DNA from: a virus | Virus record (IMG/VR): IMGVR_UViG_3300025840_004406 | Coordinates: 1 to 20,568 of that record | DNA length: 20,568 nucleotides | Reading direction: 5' to 3' (one strand) | Shown here: positions 3,100 to 20,568 of the stretch, piece after piece | How positions within the stretch are numbered: position 1 is the first letter of the stretch | How the letters are laid out: the number at the start of each line of letters is the position of its first letter | Notes under the pieces: model-generated | Seen by the model: the letters and a program-made list of their open reading frames with translations, nothing else | Database searches by the model: none | Told to the model about the DNA's origin: nothing | Position numbers and translations under genes: made by a program

Positions 3100-3934
3100 A
3101 GTGAGTTAAAATTGTGTTTTCAAGTATGTGTATAGTTTGTTTTCTCTGTCTAAATATCACGTCTAAATTTGGCAATGGTTTAACAACTTTATTTTCAATA
3201 CTGTAAGAGTTCTCATTACCAAACGCCAAGCAGTTATAAGAATTAATTTTGTAATTCATATTACCAAAGTTATCAACTTGTGCATTTTTATAATCTTTTA
3301 GATCAAGACTGTTAACAATAAAACTAGCAGTTGAAGAAAAAACATCGTTAGTATCAAGAATTATTGCAGGAACTTCATTGTCAACTTTTAATCTATCAAT
3401 CATGATGCTAAATCTATTATTGTTGCTTACCAAAGTATTATATGCTTCTCCCTGTTTGGTAAACTTGAAGCCTATGTCTTGATAGTGATCCATTACCTGT
3501 CTGTGATGTTGATTATACACAATGCCTGTTATGCGTTGTAACTCAGGTTTAGAAAAAGAAGGTAAGTCATATACTTTATGTCTTGACAATATATTTCTGA
3601 TTTTTGTATATTCTTCCTCATCAACAAACAGACTTCTAAATCCTGTTGAATTATCGAGGATATACATTGCTAAATCATCGTCATATTTGACAGGTAAGTG
3701 TTTGATATCATCTAATGTGGTAACAAAGCCTATACCAGAAATACCATCCTTTTCTGCGTTATCTGATCTACTTAACAGTATGATTGCATTTTTTTGAGTC
3801 CACAGTTGAGCATTATTTGTCTCACTTGAGGTACGCATACGAAAACCTAAAGCGGCAAGTTGCTCTCCTATATATTCATCTGAATATCTATTAGGATTAT
3901 AAGTGTATTCTAAAAATGCGTATTCTGATGTCAT
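3086..3934 (-). CDS. VOC-fold-like (4-HPPD-like) protein, tentative
   Basis: The first 80 of 282 residues read like the N-terminal module of the vicinal oxygen chelate/4-hydroxyphenylpyruvate dioxygenase superfamily. They show 'FLEYTYNP', an alpha-helix ending in 'LAALGFRMR', then 'AQLWTQKNAIILLS' and 'GISGIGFVT'. The family pattern is FxEFx..., LGF, S/N-xxLWrQGxInxVL and G-xG-xxFxV. A second, weaker copy of the order appears at about residues 145-215 (a D-x-GF-x-F motif, then 'NRFSIMIDRL', 'VPAIILDTND'), as expected for tandem modules. The metal ligands (two His and a Glu in HPPD) cannot be assigned by eye, so it may be non-enzymatic. Its ATG overlaps the A-type carrier stop (ATGA). It could instead be an unrelated phage protein. 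Confidence 0.4.
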   Translation of the reverse strand: MTSEYAFLEYTYNPNRYSDEYIGEQLAALGFRMRTSSETNNAQLWTQKNAIILLSRSDNAEKDGISGIGFVTTLDDIKHLPVKYDDDLAMYILDNSTGFRSLFVDEEEYTKIRNILSRHKVYDLPSFSKPELQRITGIVYNQHHRQVMDHYQDIGFKFTKQGEAYNTLVSNNNRFSIMIDRLKVDNEVPAIILDTNDVFSSTASFIVNSLDLKDYKNAQVDNFGNMNYKINSYNCLAFGNENSYSIENKVVKPLPNLDVIFRQRKQTIHILENTILTHYERN

Positions 3935-4296
3935 ATCTTAAATGTTACTGATTCACCACAACCACATGCACTGTCCGCAAGTGGAGCCTTTATTTCTATG
4001 TGTTGTCCAGCAATGCCAGTAACCAATTCAATGGTACTACCTGCTAGATATTCTTTGCTCAAAGTATCTAGATAAAATGTCCAACCAGTGTATTCTTTGC
4101 TGTAGTCAGTTAAATTTATATCAGATATGTCTTTGACTAACTTCCAGTCATACATAAATCCTGCACAACCGCCACCAGTTAAACTTAACTTAATACCTAT
4201 AGCATCTGCTTCTTCAGTTTGAATAAGAAAATGTCGCTGGGCACTTTCTGTTAAGGTTACAAGATCTTGCTTTGGGTTAAATGTTTTCACTTCCAT
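3931..4296 (-). CDS. A-type iron-sulfur carrier (IscA/SufA/HesB family)
   Basis: A-type carriers receive Fe-S clusters from scaffolds and pass them to apo-proteins. From the ATG at 4296 the protein is 121 aa and has all three family cysteines: C44 in 'LTGGGCAGFMYDW', and C111 and C113 in 'DSACGCGESVTF'. The family is normally about 105-120 aa. The frame stays open 24 codons further upstream to a TTG inside clpP, but those residues are not family-like, so I take the ATG; its ribosome-binding site is weak. It lies directly downstream of clpP and close to a SufE-like gene, so they probably share a transcript. It would act in the host cytoplasm, most likely maturing host or phage Fe-S enzymes during infection. 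Confidence 0.9.
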   Translation of the reverse strand: MEVKTFNPKQDLVTLTESAQRHFLIQTEEADAIGIKLSLTGGGCAGFMYDWKLVKDISDINLTDYSKEYTGWTFYLDTLSKEYLAGSTIELVTGIAGQHIEIKAPLADSACGCGESVTFKI

Positions 4297-4342
4297 ACTA
4301 CTATTTAACCAAATAAATGCATTGTTTAAGTAGTATGTGATA

Positions 4343-4930
4343 TCAACGACTTGTGATAATTTCGTCAACTAAGCCAAAGTCTAATGCCTCTTGAGCATTC
4401 ATAAAGTTATCACGATCCATTGCTGATTCGAACTCTTCGTATGTTTTTCCCTTGGTATTGTGTTTAACGTATGCTTCTGTGAGCTCACGTTTAATACGCA
4501 TAATTTCATTTGCACGAATTTGGATGTCGCTGGCTTGTCCTTGAGCACCACCTAGTGGTTGATGAATCATGTGTCTTGCTCCTGGCAACATAAAACGTTT
4601 ACCTGGTGCACCTGCGTTAGCAAGAAATGAACCCATGCTGGCCGCTTGTCCCATTACAATAGTTGATACTTCTGGCTTGATGTATTGCATTGTGTCGTAC
4701 ATGGCCATGCCTGCTGTTACAACACCTCCTGGTGAGTTGATATAAAAGTTAATATCAGTATCAGGGTCATCTGCTTCTAGGAAAAGTAACTGAGCACAAA
4801 TGCTATTTGACACTGCGTCATTAACTTCTCCATTTAAGAAAACAATTCTTTCTTTTAATAGACGACTGTAGATATCATAACTACGTTCGCCTGCCGATGT
4901 TTTTTCGATTACGTATGGAACAAAATTCAT
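4343..4930 (-). CDS. clpP: ClpP-type ATP-dependent protease subunit
   Basis: At 195 aa this is a full-length ClpP serine peptidase. The catalytic triad is intact: Ser98 in 'GQAASMGSF', His123 in 'MIHQPLGG' and Asp174 in 'MDRDNFMN'. The oxyanion-loop sequence '[19 protein letters not shown]' is canonical. The N-terminus ('[23 protein letters not shown]') carries the family's axial-loop and processing region, so the product should form or join a tetradecamer with ClpX/ClpA-type unfoldases. No phage unfoldase is visible, so use of the host ATPase is likely. A sigma70-like promoter lies just upstream and the ATG has ACAGG at about 9 nt. Confidence 0.95.
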
Positions 4931-5803: not shown

Positions 5804-7270
5804 TTAAGTTTTATGGTAATTTTTGAACCATTCAGTTTTTTTATCAATGTAGTCCCTTCTGACTTTAGTAGCAACTGTGATAGATCTTGTTTCAATAATT
5901 TTGTGTGATGCCAGATACTCAGGTACATTGGTTGTTATTCCGTGTGCCATAAAGTTGAGATACTCGAATGCACTTATCATAGGAACATGGTGTGCTGTCA
6001 TGTATGCTTGAGCTCTGTCTCTGATTTTGAATGCACTGTTAAAATCAGTCCAATTATTTTTCCAATGCAGTAATTCCATACTGCCTCTGTATATTTCTGA
6101 ACCTATGATCTCATAACCATACTTCTCAGGATTAGCACTCAATGCACTAATATAGTTGTCATCATATACATCGCTGTTGGGTTTATCTAGTTGCAGTATG
6201 CTGAGGAACATACCGTCTAATAACTTTTCATCTACAATTCTTCTAATGTTGGTTTGAAAGGTGGCTTCGGTTTCGCCTTGCAAGCCAACAATAATGCCAC
6301 TGGTGATCAGTGTGTTAGGTGACAGTTTTTTTAATTTTTTCAGTATGTCTACAGTTTTCTCAGTGTTGCCACTTTTGTTTGCAAACTTAGAACTAGAACT
6401 TTCTAGTGTTTCTATGCCAAAACTCACGCCCGATATCTTTAATTGTTCCCATAGTTCTTGTTGCTCTTGCATACCAAACAACTCAACTCTAAAAAAGCCT
6501 GCCATCTTTGGATCAAAGTCAACAGCATTTTGTGCATCTAGTAGTATTTGTAATTTTTTTGTGTCTTCATTACACGTATCGTCAGCAAGATAAAAATGTT
6601 CTGTGCCATATTTTTTGTTCATGTGTTCCATAAACTGTGCAATGTATTTTGATTCTTGCAATAATGGATTTTTGGTATTGCGTAAATCAAAACTGCAAAA
6701 ACTGCAATTAAACTTACAGCCTAATCCTATTTCAAAACCCACAATATCTTTACTGGTAATAAAGTCACTGTCTCTGAAATAGCCTATCACAGGCTTTTCT
6801 ATGTTTACATCTACATTGCGATTTAAGAATACATTAGGGTATTTGGTAGCATACTTTATCATGTCACCACCATCTAACCACGTTTCAAATATCTCCATAC
6901 TGCGTCCAATAAAAAAGTAATCTACAACATTTGAGAGTCCTTTTTCAAAGAATCTATTACCACCTAGTATGGTTTTGACATATGGTAATTCTTGCTTAAC
7001 TTGCAATAAAACGTCCTCAATTTCATATGTAACGTTGTTACTAAATGGCGTACTAATTGCAATAATTGGGTCTTTAGAATCCTTAAGGTAAGATATTATA
7101 CATTCTAGCAGTGTATCATGTGGCCATCTACTGAACCAATCGATAATTGTGTTTTCTATGCCACGTTGATCGAGACGTCTTGCAACATCTGTGGCACCTA
7201 TATTTCTATAAGTGTTACTTACATACAGGCCTTCGCCTACAGTGTTTTCACTGAGTATTAATACTTTCAC
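5804..7270 (-). CDS. radical SAM protein (B12-binding-like N-terminus), unknown substrate
   Basis: This 488-aa protein has the radical SAM cluster motif C-x3-C-x2-C at Cys185, Cys189 and Cys192 in 'GLGCKFNCSFCSFDLR'. Typical downstream elements follow: 'FYLADDTCNED', 'GVSFGIETLESSS' and 'ITSGIIVGLQGETEATF'. Residues 1-130 look like the Rossmann-type domain found before many radical SAM cores ('IAISTPFSNN', 'VKTILGGNRFF'), but the cobalamin-binding D-x-H-x-x-G is absent. It would use a [4Fe-4S] cluster and SAM to modify an unknown substrate. The start is GTG at 7270: no earlier start fits, no Shine-Dalgarno is seen, and a TATAAGTA box lies five bases upstream. It is a possible client of the Fe-S proteins encoded nearby. 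Confidence 0.85.
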   Translation of the reverse strand: MKVLILSENTVGEGLYVSNTYRNIGATDVARRLDQRGIENTIIDWFSRWPHDTLLECIISYLKDSKDPIIAISTPFSNNVTYEIEDVLLQVKQELPYVKTILGGNRFFEKGLSNVVDYFFIGRSMEIFETWLDGGDMIKYATKYPNVFLNRNVDVNIEKPVIGYFRDSDFITSKDIVGFEIGLGCKFNCSFCSFDLRNTKNPLLQESKYIAQFMEHMNKKYGTEHFYLADDTCNEDTKKLQILLDAQNAVDFDPKMAGFFRVELFGMQEQQELWEQLKISGVSFGIETLESSSSKFANKSGNTEKTVDILKKLKKLSPNTLITSGIIVGLQGETEATFQTNIRRIVDEKLLDGMFLSILQLDKPNSDVYDDNYISALSANPEKYGYEIIGSEIYRGSMELLHWKNNWTDFNSAFKIRDRAQAYMTAHHVPMISAFEYLNFMAHGITTNVPEYLASHKIIETRSITVATKVRRDYIDKKTEWFKNYHKT

Positions 7271-7655: not shown

Positions 7656-8564
7656 TTAACTCCTAAGATATATATCTAATTGTTCTAGGTCCTCATAACG
7701 TGAACCATCGAACGGGTGTACAAGATTGAAAGGATTTGCTCGTTTGTAAGTAGTACTCCTCACTCTGTCAGCGACAGCCTGAACAATCGCTTTATCTTGC
7801 TCATTTAGTTTTTCCATATTAACACCGCCTCTCATAAGAGTGAACAGTGCAATATCGAACTCCAAGTAACTGAAACCAAATTGGTCTTCGTCACCATTGG
7901 CAATACCTAAACCGTCTGTAGGCACCGCCTCCACAATTGATTGTGGTACATTGAGATATTCTGCTAATGCAGGAATCTCCCAACTTTTTGTCATTGCTTG
8001 GATAGGTGAGACGTCACCAACGTCACCATGCAATGTCCAAAAACCTGCGGCAAGTTCACTAAAGTTATCTGTGCTGGCTACAAGGCCACCTTTAGCACTT
8101 GCTAAATCATATAGGGTAATCATTCTCAGTCTTGCCCTGATATTACCTAGTCTAATCTTGTCGTCTTCTCCAAAGTTGTAAATATTATTGCTTACATAAT
8201 CAAAAATTTCTGTGAGATCTTTTTCTAAATGATTGATACCTAATGCTTCACAAAGTTCTTTTCCTCTGGCAGTTTCTTCCGGGTTTTGGTGTATAGGCAT
8301 CAATACGCCTGTTACAGTCCAACCTGCATTCTTGAAAAGTGCGGCAGTAACAGCACTGTCAATACCACCGCTGATACCGATAACAACATTTTCAATATTG
8401 TATTTTAGTTTGTATTTTGCAAGTTCGCTAACAATTGATCTGCTGAGTTCAGCGATATTGTTATGATAGACTCCGAAAGAAATTAATTCTGTAAGTTTGT
8501 CTTGAAACCAAGGTGATAATTCAGGTTGCCTGTTATACCTTAATATATTTTCTTGTATGCTCAT
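7656..8564 (-). CDS. nadE: NH3-dependent NAD+ synthetase
   Basis: NadE makes NAD+ from nicotinic acid adenine dinucleotide with ATP and ammonia. This 302-aa protein has the N-type ATP pyrophosphatase P-loop SGGIDS at residues 65-70. It also has the family segment 'STDNFSELAAGFWTLHGDVGDVSPI' in pieces that match GTDN-x-SE-x-x-x-G-x-x-T-x-x-GD and D-x-x-P. The glutamine-amidotransferase domain of long NadE forms is absent. It would raise NAD supply during infection. It is preceded by two AATAAATA boxes and followed at 4 nt by the EF-hand gene. Confidence 0.93.
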   Translation of the reverse strand: MSIQENILRYNRQPELSPWFQDKLTELISFGVYHNNIAELSRSIVSELAKYKLKYNIENVVIGISGGIDSAVTAALFKNAGWTVTGVLMPIHQNPEETARGKELCEALGINHLEKDLTEIFDYVSNNIYNFGEDDKIRLGNIRARLRMITLYDLASAKGGLVASTDNFSELAAGFWTLHGDVGDVSPIQAMTKSWEIPALAEYLNVPQSIVEAVPTDGLGIANGDEDQFGFSYLEFDIALFTLMRGGVNMEKLNEQDKAIVQAVADRVRSTTYKRANPFNLVHPFDGSRYEDLEQLDIYLRS

Positions 8565-12789: not shown

Positions 12790-12866
12790 AGAAAGCATGG
12801 AAGAAATTTGATCGGCTAATGAAGTCCGGTAGACTTAACAAGGTTGCTAATTTAGTCTTGAATTAA
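12786..12866 (+). CDS. 26-aa basic peptide coupled to the secreted protein
   Basis: The ATG overlaps the preceding TGA as ATGA, a coupling layout seen throughout this window. The peptide is Lys/Arg-rich with bulky hydrophobic residues (MKKAWKKFDRLMKS, then NLVLN), consistent with an amphipathic helix. Its TAA shares TTAA with the stop of nfuA on the other strand. The ORF is short enough to be chance; the coupling and basic composition argue for it. Confidence 0.4.
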   Translation: MKKAWKKFDRLMKSGRLNKVANLVLN

Positions 12867-13444
12867 CGATAATAGGCGTTACTGGTATCTGTGTGATCAG
12901 TAATATCTTTAACGCCTTTAATCTCAGGCACTGCTTTCATAATAGTGTCTTCAACAACATGCTTTAATGTTGCATCAACAGCACTACATCCTTGACACCC
13001 GCCACCAAAACTGATAATGGCAACATCTTCATCTGTGATTTCAACAAGTGAAACTTCGCCGCCATGCATCTTTACCATTTCGTTTACATCATTGTATAGT
13101 ACATAATTAACTTTATCTGATAAAGTTGCATCAGGACCTACTTGAGGTAGTTTACTGTTAGGTGCTTTGATAGTAAGAGTACCACCTGCAAAGTCTTCAT
13201 CATAATTAATCAGTGCATCTTCTAAGTATTTTACACTATCAACCACTGCATATACATCAAGTGGACCAAACGACTCTTTTACATCTGTTTCTTTCACTGT
13301 GGATTCTTTAGCATAAGTTAATAATGTTTCGGCACGTGGTGTACCAGGCTTGTCCACAAACAATCTCACACCAATGGCTTCACTATTCTTGCTTAACAAA
13401 TTGCTGAGATATTCTCTTGCTGATTCTGTTACTGTTATATTCAT
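12863..13444 (-). CDS. nfuA: Fe/S biogenesis protein NfuA
   Basis: NfuA carries [4Fe-4S] clusters to target enzymes. This 193-aa protein has both E. coli-type domains. Residues 1-95 are a degenerate A-type domain without its cysteines ('GVRLFVDKPGTPRAE', 'TLTIKAPNS'). Residues 105-193 are an Nfu domain with C150 and C153 in 'ISFGGGCQGCSAVDATL', followed by 'VPEIKGVKDITDHTD'. Length and both motifs agree closely with the 191-aa E. coli protein, whose cysteines are at almost the same positions. The ATG overlaps the dCMP deaminase stop (ATGA). It is the last gene of the 15424-12863 unit. Confidence 0.95.
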   Translation of the reverse strand: MNITVTESAREYLSNLLSKNSEAIGVRLFVDKPGTPRAETLLTYAKESTVKETDVKESFGPLDVYAVVDSVKYLEDALINYDEDFAGGTLTIKAPNSKLPQVGPDATLSDKVNYVLYNDVNEMVKMHGGEVSLVEITDEDVAIISFGGGCQGCSAVDATLKHVVEDTIMKAVPEIKGVKDITDHTDTSNAYYR

Positions 13445-13848
13445 ACTTTTATTACCTCAATGCCACTGTCTATTAAAAATTGTTTGCCTGTGCCTTTTGC
13501 GGCTTGATATTCTTCTCGGTAGTACACAGTGACTATACCACTTTGATGAATAAGTTTAGCACATTCTATACACGGCAAATGTGTACAGAAGATTTCCGAA
13601 CCTCTGCTACTTTCATTGCTTTGTGCTACTTTAGCAATGGCATTTGTTTCTGCATGTAATACTTCAGGCTTGGTTTTACCGTCATGTTCACAATCGTTGT
13701 CCCATCCTGAGGGCATTCCATTATATCCTATACTTATGATACGTTTGTCTTTTACAATGATTGCCCCTACTTTAGCACGTTGAGCAGAACTCAGTCGTGC
13801 AAAACGTTCTGCAACATCCATAAATGCATTTATGAATTTATCTTTCAA
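13441..13848 (-). CDS. dCMP deaminase
   Basis: The enzyme converts dCMP to dUMP for thymidylate synthesis, as in T4 (gene cd). The 135-aa protein has the zinc site of the family: His65 and Glu67 in 'VLHAETNAI' and Cys93 and Cys96 in 'HLPCIECAK'. It also has the typical 'KVGAIIVKDKRIISIGYNGMP' opening, here in an uninterrupted match. The start is a TTG overlapping the upstream TGA (TTGA). The first Met codon at residue 10 would remove part of the conserved N-terminal helix. It sits between the APS-kinase-like fusion and nfuA. Confidence 0.93.
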   Translation of the reverse strand: MKDKFINAFMDVAERFARLSSAQRAKVGAIIVKDKRIISIGYNGMPSGWDNDCEHDGKTKPEVLHAETNAIAKVAQSNESSRGSEIFCTHLPCIECAKLIHQSGIVTVYYREEYQAAKGTGKQFLIDSGIEVIKV

Positions 13849-14627
13849 AGGTCGCCGTCCTTCCTCATTTGTTCTCTAATTTTTGTTGCACTAATTTCGT
13901 GTGTAGCATCATCAAACACTTCTTGTTCAATTTTATAACCAACACCACGACCATATGTAATGTTCATGATATTTGGCACAATGCTAATTTTAACTTTACC
14001 AGCAAATTTTACCAACTGCTCTTTTAGATTACTAACAACTGCCGCTTGATCAAACGGATTGCTATCATCTTTTGGCATGTCTCTGACCATTAGCCAAACT
14101 TGTCCATGTTTTGCTATTGCTCTATCAAACAGTGCTTGGTGTCCATCATGCCATGGTTGCCATCTGCCTAACATTTGTGTAGTTGGTGCTTTGTTGTCCC
14201 AAATAAATTTTTCGCCAATAATCCATGCAATCTTTTTAGCATCAACATCACCACGTTGACTTCTCACAATGTAACTGCAATCACCTACGTTGGGTCTTTC
14301 AAACACTTTGTTAGTGTCTTCAAACCTGCCTTCGGCAATGGTGTCTACCCATATGGTATAATCTGCACCAAATTCTTCACGAGCTTTATCAAAAGGACAA
14401 ACAAAATCTGCGATTGCAATTTTGCCTTCTTCTTCTGCACCTTCACAGAGCAGTTGCATTCTCTGTTTTTGTCTTAGTCTACCTTCGTCTGAAAAGTCCC
14501 AATCATTTGCATCACTGCGAACTTGATCAGCATTAAACCAAGCAACTTGATCTCCTAATATATTTACTAGTTCTTTTGCTAGGTACGTTTTGCCACTCCC
14601 TGGCAACCCAAATATTAATATTTTCAT
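13845..14627 (-). CDS. APS-kinase-like P-loop domain fused to a nucleotidyltransferase domain
   Basis: Two domains are visible in 260 aa. Residues 1-145 are an adenylylsulfate-kinase-like P-loop kinase with Walker A GLPGSGKT (7-14) and 'WFNADQVRSDANDWDFS' in the position of the APS kinase D-G-D-N-x-R segment. Residues 150-260 are an NMNAT/cytidylyltransferase-type domain with H160-D-G-H163 in 'LGRWQPWHDGHQALF' and the C-terminal 'ISATKIREQM' (I-S-x-T-x-I-R) motif. Similar fusions occur in marine phages as I recall. The product may be an activated sulfate, sugar or nicotinamide nucleotide; the substrate is unknown. It neighbours a DUF2061 gene, a family found near sulfate-activation genes. Confidence 0.75.
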   Translation of the reverse strand: MKILIFGLPGSGKTYLAKELVNILGDQVAWFNADQVRSDANDWDFSDEGRLRQKQRMQLLCEGAEEEGKIAIADFVCPFDKAREEFGADYTIWVDTIAEGRFEDTNKVFERPNVGDCSYIVRSQRGDVDAKKIAWIIGEKFIWDNKAPTTQMLGRWQPWHDGHQALFDRAIAKHGQVWLMVRDMPKDDSNPFDQAAVVSNLKEQLVKFAGKVKISIVPNIMNITYGRGVGYKIEQEVFDDATHEISATKIREQMRKDGDL

Positions 14628-14662
14628 TTTTTCTCTATTTTAATGTTTGTTCCTGGGTAGTA

Positions 14663-14776
14663 TCATTCCTTGACCCATTCCAAACATTTACCACAATTAG
14701 TACCAATCTTATTTACTAATTCTGGATTATCTTTGAGCATTGACTCTGTTATTCCATTACATATACAAATATACAT
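14663..14776 (-). CDS. 37-aa Bfd-like [2Fe-2S] mini-ferredoxin
   Basis: A complete short ORF begins three bases after the DUF2061 stop, with ATG at 14776 and TGA at 14663-14665. Its sequence matches bacterioferritin-associated ferredoxin. 'MYICICNGIT' gives the C-x-C at residues 4 and 6, and 'GTNCGKCLEWV' gives the C-x2-C at 28 and 31, the four Bfd cluster ligands. Cellular Bfd is about 60-65 aa; here the helical part between the two cysteine pairs is shortened and there is almost no C-terminal tail. Bfd normally reduces iron in bacterioferritin, so a phage version could mobilise stored host iron. It is too short for routine gene finding. Confidence 0.75.
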   Translation of the reverse strand: MYICICNGITESMLKDNPELVNKIGTNCGKCLEWVKE

Positions 14777-14778
14777 AA

Positions 14779-14991
14779 TTATTTCTTTACACCAAACCTA
14801 ATATGATTATACCAAAGTCTTTCGTGTGCATAATACAGCACAAATTTTATAACTAAGTCTGCAATAAAAACACCTCCAACTGCTTTAGGTGGTAGTCCAA
14901 AACCATAAGCAATTATTGCAGTTGTGATACTAGCAATAATTCTCCATGTGACTGCTTTTGCTAAGTGTCTAGACTTGGAAACATCTGTCAT
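14779..14991 (-). CDS. DUF2061 membrane protein
   Basis: This 70-aa protein fits DUF2061: 'SRHLAKAVTWRIIASITT' (K-A-x-T-W-R-x-x-x-x-x-x-T), a hydrophobic span, a second span around 'VGGVFIADLVIKFVLYY' and the terminal 'YYAHERLWYNHIRFG' (Y-Y-x-H-E-R-x-W). Two transmembrane segments are likely. The function is unknown; family members occur near sulfate-activation genes, and the APS-kinase-like fusion gene is two genes downstream. AAGGAT precedes the ATG, embedded in the cupin stop. Confidence 0.85.
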   Translation of the reverse strand: MTDVSKSRHLAKAVTWRIIASITTAIIAYGFGLPPKAVGGVFIADLVIKFVLYYAHERLWYNHIRFGVKK

Positions 14992-17551: not shown

Positions 17552-20500
17552 ATGGCACAGCATAAGGACTATGGTTTAATTGGTGCAGGTAGAAATCTGC
17601 AACTTGGTAAACTAGGACCCAAATTAGAAGGTAATGCAGATTCAGGTGCAATCACTGTGAGTTCTGCAGGTGGCACATTGTCTGTTATGCGAGGTGCTAA
17701 TGCAGAAAATTCTACAGATTTTGTAACCAAAGCACAACTTGATATAGTATCAAGTTCATCAGCAACAGACGGATTTAGTCTACAATTAGGCAACGTTGAT
17801 GCAAGTGGTGACGGCGATTGGCATATCACACCTAATCAAGGTGACTATGATGGCAACAGCAGTGTGCTTAGACAGGGTGCAATAACATCATTTACCAACA
17901 CTCACAATGTCTCAGAAGCAATTGACAAACTGAACGAAGCAGTTCTAAACGTATATAATAATACATTTGTGCGTGATTTAGATTTCACAGTTGATACTGA
18001 CACGGGCGGTAGCCCATTAGTCAGCACATTAACTATTACTGCCACAGGTAATGCTAATAGATACACAATTGATTGGGGTGATGGCAGTTCAACAACTGCT
18101 ACAACAGATAGCACTCCAACGCATACTTATACTGATAACACTAACTCACCATTTGATGTACAAGTTACAGCATTTAATAATTCAGGTGCTGGTGAGGGTA
18201 GTTCAGCAAGTTTAACAAAACAAGATTTCATTACATTATATACTGCTAACCCAGTTGCTGACTTTGACTTTTATGCGGCGGCAAGTGGTGGTTCAGCAGT
18301 GACATTTGTTGATGATGGTACAGCATTGTATTTTGAAAATACAACTACTAACATCGGCGATGCAACTGTACAATATACAATCGACTGGGGCGACAGTGAA
18401 GCAAACAGCACTATCACAAATGACAGTTTCCCAGGCGGTACAGCAGGTAGTAGACTTGCTCATACATTTACAACGTCAACAGAACAAGAGCAAAGTTATA
18501 CAGTATTACTGAGTTTAGACAGTCACAGTACTGCCGACCCAGCAGTAATACCTTCTACTACTACATCAACAATTAAAGTTTATGATACGCATACTCCAGA
18601 AGTGTCATTAGATGATAACAGTGGTATTAACGAACAAGCAACATCAGGACATGTTGTTACCTTCACAAACAACACTGAGAACACAATTGGTAGTTATGCA
18701 GATTACGGAATTCAATACAGATACAACTGGGGGGATGGCACCACAACTACAGTGAATGTAGGTAGCGGTAGTGATGGCGATACAGGTGACACAATCAGTC
18801 ACACTTATGATCTATCAGGTGCTCAACAAGCGGCAGGCACAGCAGTTGACTTTACAGGTAACTTGGAAGTTATCTCAAATCACAGCAGTTCACCATTTAA
18901 GAGTTCAGACTTCACTGTACACGTTGAACCAGATGTGAGAGCAACCATCACAGGTTCAAGTACAACTGCAAGCCTCAAGTCAAGCAATGACAGTGTAAGA
19001 ACTGTGTACAAAGGCACAGACTTGTCAGGAGACAACCGTGCTGTTCTTACTGTAGATAATACTACACAAAATGGTGATAGTTACGAATATGATTTTGGTG
19101 ATGGCAGTGCAAATGTCACTGTCACAGAAGCAAGTAGTGGTGCAGGTAGTGTAGCAGGTGCTAACATCACACACGATTACAGCAGTGCTTCAACAGGTAG
19201 CAAAACAGTCACAATGACTGCAAGTGGTACACCAGATCTTACTGCACAATCTGACAGTGATAGTTTCACAGTTGTTGTAGAAGATGTACCGGCCGCACCA
19301 GCAGGATTAAGTTCAAAAAGTATTACATGGAATACCTCAGCACAAGGTACTTCACCAAAACTGGCATCAGGATATAATGATGCAGGTTCAACAAGTTTAA
19401 CAGCAGGTGACAGTCTAAACACTTCGACTGTTATCAGAAGAGACAGCACTGTGGCAATTGACACATCAACTGTGGCAGATGCATATAACAGTGCAACTGG
19501 TACATTGAGTGCATTGTGGGATGGTAGCACAGATGGTAGCAAAGCATTCAGTACAGCAACTGGTGAAACAGGCACATTTGATAGCCTTGTTATCACATCA
19601 GAAGGTGATGCATACAGTGAGATAAGTTCAACAACTTATCCGCAAAACTTCTATCAAGTGTTTAGTGCTAAGATTTCAAACAGCATGGCAGATCAAGACT
19701 ATGGTGCTCACAAAGCCAAGTTAAGTCACGACGCAACAGGTGACACTAACGAAGTATTTGTGGTATACGATAACCTAACAACTACTCCAACAGTTGATAT
19801 CAGTGGTGCTTCTCTTGTAGAAGAAACACAAGGAACCTATCGTTATATTTCAGGCATACCATATTACAACACAGGTAGCCCACAGGTCAAAGTTGTGGGT
19901 GCCACAGTCACTAACTGGATAGGACAGGCTTACAGAGATACTGTACAAGTTTGGTTTAACAGTGATGGTACCAACTATGAGAGTACATCACAAGCGGCTA
20001 TCCAAGAAGAATACAGAAGTTATGCAGATATCAACGGTGCAGTAAGCATGTTGGCATCTGGTGTACCTACAGCAAACGTTGGTATTAGTTCAGCATACGC
20101 ATTAGGCAATGTCACAGTTGATATCACAACAAACAGCAACGTTAAATCAGTTGAAACAATCAAGTTCCAAATGCAAAACGTTAATGGTGCAGGTGCAATG
20201 AGTTCAGAAACTTCTGAGAAAATACAAGTTTATACAGCAACACCAACAGGATTAGATGCAGAAGAAATTGCAGTAAGCGACAGTCTTGGTGCTACATTTG
20301 ATGATGATGGTGTGAGAGTTACAGGATTTGGTGATGCATCAGATACTCCAGCATTTGATAACAGTGTGAACAACTACACTGCAAACGTTTGGAGTGGTGC
20401 AGAAACCATTGCAGGCACAAGTGAAGCAGTATGTAGATTTGGTAACCTTGTACATTATGATGTAGATCACAGTTCAGATTGGTTACCAGTAGGTCCAGAC

Positions 20501-20568
20501 TTAGCAACAGGCAGAAGTGGTGCTCAATACTTTACTTTTGCATTTAGAAGAACCACAATGAGTAACTT
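17552..20568 (+). CDS. large PKD-repeat tail fibre/structural protein, 3' end outside the window
   Basis: The frame is open from ATG 17552 (GGAG upstream) to the window end, giving at least 1,005 residues. Residues 1-65 ('YGLIGAGRNLQLGKLGPKLE', then 'DFVTKAQLD') and 120-145 ('VSEAIDKLNEAVLNVYNN') resemble segments of marine T4-like phage tail or fibre proteins. At least four PKD-type domains follow, marked by D/N-W/F-GDG/S at residues 174-178, 278-282, 392-396 and 514-518, each followed by a (T/S)H-x-Y/F-type strand. The remainder is Ser/Thr/Asp/Gly-rich and beta-like. PKD domains are Ig-like spacers or carbohydrate binders, so a host-receptor or capsid-decoration role is likely. It is the only long plus-strand gene. 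Confidence 0.8.
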   Translation, partial: MAQHKDYGLIGAGRNLQLGKLGPKLEGNADSGAITVSSAGGTLSVMRGANAENSTDFVTKAQLDIVSSSSATDGFSLQLGNVDASGDGDWHITPNQGDYDGNSSVLRQGAITSFTNTHNVSEAIDKLNEAVLNVYNNTFVRDLDFTVDTDTGGSPLVSTLTITATGNANRYTIDWGDGSSTTATTDSTPTHTYTDNTNSPFDVQVTAFNNSGAGEGSSASLTKQDFITLYTANPVADFDFYAAASGGSAVTFVDDGTALYFENTTTNIGDATVQYTIDWGDSEANSTITNDSFPGGTAGSRLAHTFTTSTEQEQSYTVLLSLDSHSTADPAVIPSTTTSTIKVYDTHTPEVSLDDNSGINEQATSGHVVTFTNNTENTIGSYADYGIQYRYNWGDGTTTTVNVGSGSDGDTGDTISHTYDLSGAQQAAGTAVDFTGNLEVISNHSSSPFKSSDFTVHVEPDVRATITGSSTTASLKSSNDSVRTVYKGTDLSGDNRAVLTVDNTTQNGDSYEYDFGDGSANVTVTEASSGAGSVAGANITHDYSSASTGSKTVTMTASGTPDLTAQSDSDSFTVVVEDVPAAPAGLSSKSITWNTSAQGTSPKLASGYNDAGSTSLTAGDSLNTSTVIRRDSTVAIDTSTVADAYNSATGTLSALWDGSTDGSKAFSTATGETGTFDSLVITSEGDAYSEISSTTYPQNFYQVFSAKISNSMADQDYGAHKAKLSHDATGDTNEVFVVYDNLTTTPTVDISGASLVEETQGTYRYISGIPYYNTGSPQVKVVGATVTNWIGQAYRDTVQVWFNSDGTNYESTSQAAIQEEYRSYADINGAVSMLASGVPTANVGISSAYALGNVTVDITTNSNVKSVETIKFQMQNVNGAGAMSSETSEKIQVYTATPTGLDAEEIAVSDSLGATFDDDGVRVTGFGDASDTPAFDNSVNNYTANVWSGAETIAGTSEAVCRFGNLVHYDVDHSSDWLPVGPDLATGRSGAQYFTFAFRRTTMSN

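Follow-up and report, generated by a model that had tools for sequence, protein, structure and literature searches.

The mini-Bfd gene of the window

An open reading frame (ORF) in the short gap between a DUF2061 gene and a kinase-like gene of a viral genome raises the questions of whether it is a gene and what its product might do. The gap was studied in the window, which denotes the whole stretch of 20,568 nucleotides of viral DNA that was analysed, and in related viral loci. The original prediction was that the gap held a Bfd-like ferredoxin of 37 residues, with two cysteines near the N-terminus and two in a later Gly-Lys-containing motif. The gap spanned 151 bp (14628–14778), exactly as had been proposed. 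The ORF was located on the minus strand (14776–14663), and the plus strand across the same positions was closed. Its start lay 2 nt past the stop codon of DUF2061 (14779–14781), and it encoded the product MYICICNGITESMLKDNPELVNKIGTNCGKCLEWVKE, in which the predicted cysteine pattern was present as C4-x-C6-x21-C28-G-K-C31. The ORF, here called mini-Bfd, was confirmed as a genuine gene; a chance ORF was excluded by its recurrence, its cysteine spacing and the selection acting on it. The features of the locus are listed in Table 1.

Table 1. Features of the mini-Bfd locus and Fe-S-related genes of the window
Feature	Position	Strand	Remarks
DUF2061 membrane protein, upstream neighbour	14779–14991	−	Pfam 48.5 bits
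mini-Bfd ORF	14663–14776	−	37 codons and TGA; Pfam Fer2_BFD 26.0 bits, equal to the gathering score
Conserved 31-residue core, M1–C31, with C4, C6, C28 and C31	14684–14776	−	conserved across 135 further viral loci
Premature in-frame TGA, codon 38	14663–14665	−	Asn at codon 38 in L081, L101 and L145
Remnant tail YYPGTNIKIEKK and stop	14624–14662	−	homologous to NKYPGTDIKIE of L081
P-loop kinase and nucleotidyltransferase (NMNAT-like) protein, downstream neighbour	13845–14627	−
dCMP/cytidine deaminase	13441–13848	−	conserved, and follows mini-Bfd in L081, L101 and L145 as well
NfuA-type Fe-S carrier (A-type domain and NifU domain)	12863–13444	−	TIGR03341 238 bits
A-type Fe-S carrier (ErpA/IscA/SufA-like)	3931–4368	−	TIGR00049 62.6 bits
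Radical SAM enzyme	5804–7270		same contig as the window mini-Bfd

Two further features of the window were observed. An NAD+ synthase gene (NadE, 7656–8564) was found in the same contig as the gene of the kinase and NMN-adenylyltransferase-like protein, which suggests viral NAD synthesis or salvage. At 17552–20566 on the plus strand, an open frame of at least 1005 aa ran off the contig end; repeated Ig/PKD-like segments were seen in it by eye, and its product probably serves in virion structure or adhesion.

The premature stop codon and the tail of the gene

Beyond the TGA, 12 further sense codons continued in the same frame, and the encoded tail, YYPGTNIKIEKK, was aligned without gaps to the tails of the syntenic relatives L081 and L145. 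The equivalent tail was NKYPGTDIKIE or NKYPGTEIKI in these two relatives and NKVPGT in L101. The stop codon after the tail overlapped the start codon of the kinase gene in the sequence ATGA (14627–14624). The DNA of L081 matched positions 14620–14777 at 75% identity, and the surrounding synteny showed 79–88% identity. Because the conserved tail lies in frame and ends in the ATGA overlap, the intergenic gap is the 3′ portion of a gene cut short by the TGA; the ancestral gene had 50 codons and no gap before the kinase gene. The 37 residues, first taken as the natural length of the protein, are thus set by a premature TGA, the orthologues having 53–63 aa, and the supposed intergenic location gave way to a frame that runs on to the kinase gene. 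Genome-wide recoding of TGA was excluded, since TGA terminates many other genes of the window.

The TGA in the window contig would have cost the protein its short tail and left the cluster core untouched. It could also mark early loss of function in a decaying allele, or reflect a sequencing or assembly error, with the family functional elsewhere. The in-frame homology past the TGA up to the kinase overlap is consistent with such a reading, as is the tail of L081, which was modelled with fair confidence (mean pLDDT 80, residues 41–50). A pattern search with the tail motif matched only the four known relatives, and all four (4/4) read through the TGA position with a sense codon. However, the 31-residue core of the window was intact and constrained, with a dN/dS of about 0.14 against L081 (dN 0.16, dS 1.18), and the shortest members of the family stop at 34–36 residues, so that the tail is dispensable within the family. 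Decay or error in the window copy was considered unlikely.

DUF2061 was also found upstream of mini-Bfd in L101 and, as judged from its C-terminal sequence, in L145. In L081, the kinase gene was missing at the corresponding place and DUF2061 was missing around mini-Bfd, so the flanks form the variable part of the locus. A tie between the position of mini-Bfd and the kinase gene was rejected, as mini-Bfd was present in 0 of 80 kinase loci and 0 of 37 long kinase contigs, the latter being a set without an internal positive control, searched with a profile that does find the window.

Distribution and conservation of the mini-Bfd family

At least 119 viral contigs matched a degenerate DNA pattern that represents the cysteine frame, and the same minimal architecture was collected from at least 135 viral contigs besides the window. 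With the window included, 136 loci formed 34 lineages when clustered at 80% core identity. A genome search with PF04324 missed the ORF of the window itself and was left out of the counting. Three cysteine spacings were present among the mini forms collected: x21 (92 bp span), x17 (80 bp) and a single x19. Pattern scans of viral contigs gave 0 matches for tighter spacings and 5 matches for the full-length cellular-type spacing.

All collected forms, like that of the window, had C4, C6, C28 and C31, four cysteines that the search patterns demanded. Two scans without the Tyr2 requirement added forms with Ile or Leu at position 2, which excluded Tyr2 as an absolute requirement. Residue Ile9 was found in 53/53 and Gly25 in 52/53 of the x21 forms, and neither was imposed by the pattern. 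The median dN/dS was 0.33 for the x21 forms and 0.13 for the x17 forms; on these codon comparisons, the core is under purifying selection. Relatives without the four cysteines or with a stop codon in the core, which would have spoken against the gene, were looked for, and L081, L101, L145 and L158 all kept the four cysteines and an uninterrupted 31-residue core.

When the cysteine-frame pattern was run over cellular genomes (257 Gb, 84,980 species), 37 matches were obtained by a scan that demanded Tyr2 and Asn7, so that divergent cellular forms may escape it. Among these, 36 were full-length cellular Bfds caught through other base matches. The sole in-frame mini form, L311, was rejected as a cellular mini-Bfd because it was 99.5% identical over its full length to the viral contig L114, which marks it as a misbinned viral contig. 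In isolate phages, tblastn searches with five mini forms returned no mini form, only cellular-type Bfds or chance matches; as these searches reached cellular-type Bfds at about 32% identity, moderately similar mini forms were expected to be visible. No family matching mini-Bfd was found in PHROGs. On the sequences compared, mini-Bfd is a shrunken Bfd specific to viruses, with about 10 residues fewer between the helices than in cellular Bfd.

Relationship of mini-Bfd to Bfd

The score of the window against Fer2_BFD (PF04324) was borderline, reaching the gathering score of 26 bits, and the same profile matched 39 of the 51 aligned members (three full-length) at E ≤ 0.1, several of them under the cut-off. 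Against the Bfd equivalog NF007803, the window scored 25 bits, well below the cut-off of 75. When a profile built from mini forms alone was run against the PDB, it matched four Bfd sequences of P. aeruginosa with E values of 2e-5 to 5e-5, and no other entry below E 0.09. Bfd was the sole convincing profile match of mini-Bfd as well as its best PDB fold match. The alignment with three full-length viral forms was continuous, and in it the mini forms lacked 10 residues from helix 1 to the GTxCGKC motif. The distance between the CxC and CxxC pairs, about 31–33 residues in Fer2_BFD, was x21 in the window and x17 or x19 in other members.

The AlphaFold2 model of the window form (pLDDT 79, pTM 0.48) consisted of a strand-loop and three short helices (E2-4, H11-16, H18-23, H30-36). 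The model of the tailed orthologue L081 was better (pLDDT 87, pTM 0.62), and its five best PDB matches in Foldseek were all Bfd (best E 0.047, probability 0.92, TM 0.54). The 37-aa window model also matched only Bfd, weakly (E 0.6), and gave no VIA-align match with Z ≥ 2. The fold match is for this last reason suggestive rather than proven. The mini-form profile and the Foldseek result for L081 both led to Bfd, which bears out the idea that the ORF encodes a minimal, Bfd-derived unit with a predicted [2Fe-2S] cluster.

Like Bfd (4e6k, 6e6q/r/s; PF04324), mini-Bfd has the CxC...CxxC ligands, the MYxCxC start, a Thr at helix 1 and the GTxCGKC motif. Unlike Bfd, it lacks about 10 (x21 forms) or 14 (x17 forms) residues from helix 1 to the second cysteine pair, and it is restricted to viruses, with no bfr gene nearby. 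From its homology to Bfd we infer that mini-Bfd binds a [2Fe-2S] cluster. Residues C4, C6, C28 and C31 are predicted to hold one such cluster, the first cysteine pair in an N-terminal loop and the second, beyond two short helices, in the CGKC loop; the roughly 10 residues by which the inter-helix segment is longer in cellular Bfd are missing. The core of 27–31 residues would perhaps place mini-Bfd as the smallest of the natural [2Fe-2S] ferredoxins.

As first proposed for the ORF, mini-Bfd might be a working miniature Bfd, docking on host bacterioferritin (Bfr), reducing its heme and freeing stored iron for the virus. The nearest solved relative is the P. aeruginosa Bfd, in which Tyr at residue 2 and the hydrophobic residue 5 sit in the Bfr cleft (PMC13136788). 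Most mini forms kept these contact residues. The window has Tyr2 and Ile5, the latter corresponding to Leu in the P. aeruginosa protein; position 2 was Tyr in 120/136 loci (35/44 in the scan unbiased for Tyr) and Ile or Leu in the rest, and position 5 was Ile, Val or Leu, though a T-centred codon was imposed there by the patterns. Against this function stand the equivalog score given above, the presence of ferritin genes in just 1/50 mini-Bfd contigs and neighbourhoods that favour assembly genes, and a working miniature Bfd was judged rather unlikely. Viral Fe-S assembly might in that case be the consumer of the freed iron, and the two roles could act in series.

Association with Fe-S assembly genes

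Genes of Fe-S cluster assembly were found close to mini-Bfd in several arrangements. NfuA was located downstream of mini-Bfd in the relatives L081, L101 and L145, as in the window. In L198 and L146, the genes of IscU, an A-type carrier and mini-Bfd formed an operon with abutting or overlapping ends. These two contigs are related, and their three-gene viral isc mini-operon (mini-Bfd at L198:7509-7589; minus strand in L146) was also seen in the near-duplicates L157 and L152. IscU directly abutted mini-Bfd in L135, L142 and L178 and was close upstream in L169. The order was IscU, glutaredoxin, MazG-like protein and mini-Bfd in L168, and IscU, nuclease and mini-Bfd in L111, the glutaredoxin, MazG and nuclease labels being a reading of the sequence. 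The glutaredoxin-like gene of L168 (CNSC) directly followed IscU, at 456 to 237 bases ahead of mini-Bfd. In a 19-member lineage, IscU was upstream of mini-Bfd, about 1 kb away in 15 loci.

IscU, an A-type carrier or Nfu was encoded on the strand of mini-Bfd at a distance of up to 2.1 kb in 9/34 lineages, compared with 3/80 control loci (Fisher p 9e-4), and IscU alone in 5/34 compared with 0/80 (p 0.002); the controls were kinase-centred loci of one neighbourhood type, and the lineages were partly non-independent. In the other 25/34 lineages, many of whose loci are fragments, a Fe-S assembly gene was absent within this distance. Among whole contigs, IscU was present in 18/50 with mini-Bfd (about 9 lineages) and in 3/37 controls. 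The reverse test gave a weak result, as mini-Bfd was found in 1/80 of the viral IscU loci nearest the query, some of which are perhaps bacterial DNA. No bfr gene was seen as a neighbour of mini-Bfd in the neighbourhoods examined. The contig of L101 carried a ferritin-family gene (G011:30295-30693) and also encoded IscU, NfuA and mini-Bfd.

The link of mini-Bfd with Fe-S assembly genes was thus significant but not universal, and the gene linkage expected of a Fe-S assembly ferredoxin was found, in the group of the window as well. Because mini-Bfd often lies beside viral Fe-S assembly genes, a ferredoxin of Fe-S assembly is more likely than an iron-releasing Bfd.

Fusions to DNA enzymes

In several viruses the mini-Bfd core was the N-terminal part of a longer frame. 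In L097, L110, L123 and L190 it was fused in frame to a UvsW helicase (531 aa in total), as it was in L182, whose frame has 529 aa. In-frame fusions to an exonuclease reached about 650 aa in L092, L131, L147 and L176 but ended near 250 aa in L148, L161 and L171. This exonuclease, which we take to be of the PD-(D/E)XK fold class, had its best isolate cyanophage matches beginning after the N-terminal mini-Bfd module. Translation may also start inside the fusion ORFs.

The continuous ORFs, and the module left uncovered by the isolate exonucleases, would suit a small structural or redox-sensing cluster, or a zinc knuckle, through which DNA enzymes of the virus are regulated or stabilised. The fusions were, however, a minority, and most forms, including that of the window, stand alone. 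The cysteine spacing and nearby residues resembled Bfd and not a zinc ribbon, and zinc-ribbon matches were weak (6/51 members, best E 0.01). A structural or regulatory role of this kind was considered quite improbable.

Comparison with known systems and proposed function

Several known systems resemble parts of this arrangement. The NifU protein consists of an IscU domain, a Bfd-like [2Fe-2S] domain and an Nfu domain, in that order. In the viral loci, the same order was seen, the Bfd-like unit having IscU on its upstream side and Nfu on its downstream side, although as separate small proteins instead of one chain, and the three were never close together in one locus here. The motif residues Tyr2, Ile5 and Asn7 of mini-Bfd are presumably those of Bfd proper when compared with NifU. 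The ferredoxin Fdx of the isc operon, with roughly 110 residues, has an adrenodoxin-type fold and no relationship to Bfd; mini-Bfd is like it in sharing an operon with IscU and IscA (L146, L198). Cyanophages encode plant-type [2Fe-2S] ferredoxins (petF-like) of about 95 residues, with a fold unlike that of mini-Bfd. Viral IscU and A-type carrier genes have been described in marine phages (PMC5332604); mini-Bfd occurs in the same gene company and also in marine viruses, and the text of that report makes no mention of ferredoxin or bacterioferritin. In the literature search, which covered neither subscription papers nor preprints, viral IscU and A-type carriers came up, whereas a viral mini-Bfd was not mentioned in any paper found.

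In the preferred model, given about an even chance, mini-Bfd is a small [2Fe-2S] ferredoxin serving virus-directed Fe-S assembly. The reality of the gene, its family, conservation, restriction to viruses and neighbourhoods are observed here, and its redox role and assembly partners are inferred; the position of IscU upstream of mini-Bfd in close pairs, which corresponds to the domain order of NifU, was counted in favour of the assembly role. Mini-Bfd would act as a one-electron ferredoxin in place of the Fdx of the isc operon or of the central Bfd-like domain of NifU. The IscU scaffold and the A-type and NfuA carriers, which are encoded by many of these viruses and of which the window itself has NfuA and an A-type carrier, would receive electrons, or a cluster, from it. 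The outcome would be the maturation of Fe-S enzymes used in infection, such as radical SAM enzymes. Several observations count against the assembly model: the 25/34 lineages without a nearby assembly gene, the reverse test, the fusions to UvsW helicase and exonuclease, which it leaves unexplained, and the Bfr-contact residues, which are mostly kept, as a real Bfd would require. A wider proposal, in which tiny virus-only [2Fe-2S] ferredoxins serve viral ISC mini-operons and also form a Fe-S module on the UvsW helicase or exonuclease, is tentative and was rated somewhat below an even chance.

Since the family was missed by PHROGs, many copies of mini-Bfd are probably unannotated gaps in viral genomes. 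If the cluster is bound, the core of about 30 residues (27 in x17 forms) would rank with the smallest [2Fe-2S] proteins in nature, and mini-Bfd would be useful for asking how little protein is needed around a redox cluster. The electron source for viral Fe-S assembly genes was not addressed in the literature found. Cluster binding would also show that viruses bring along a ferredoxin component to go with the Fe-S assembly genes they encode, and virus infection would be tied to iron-sulfur supply.
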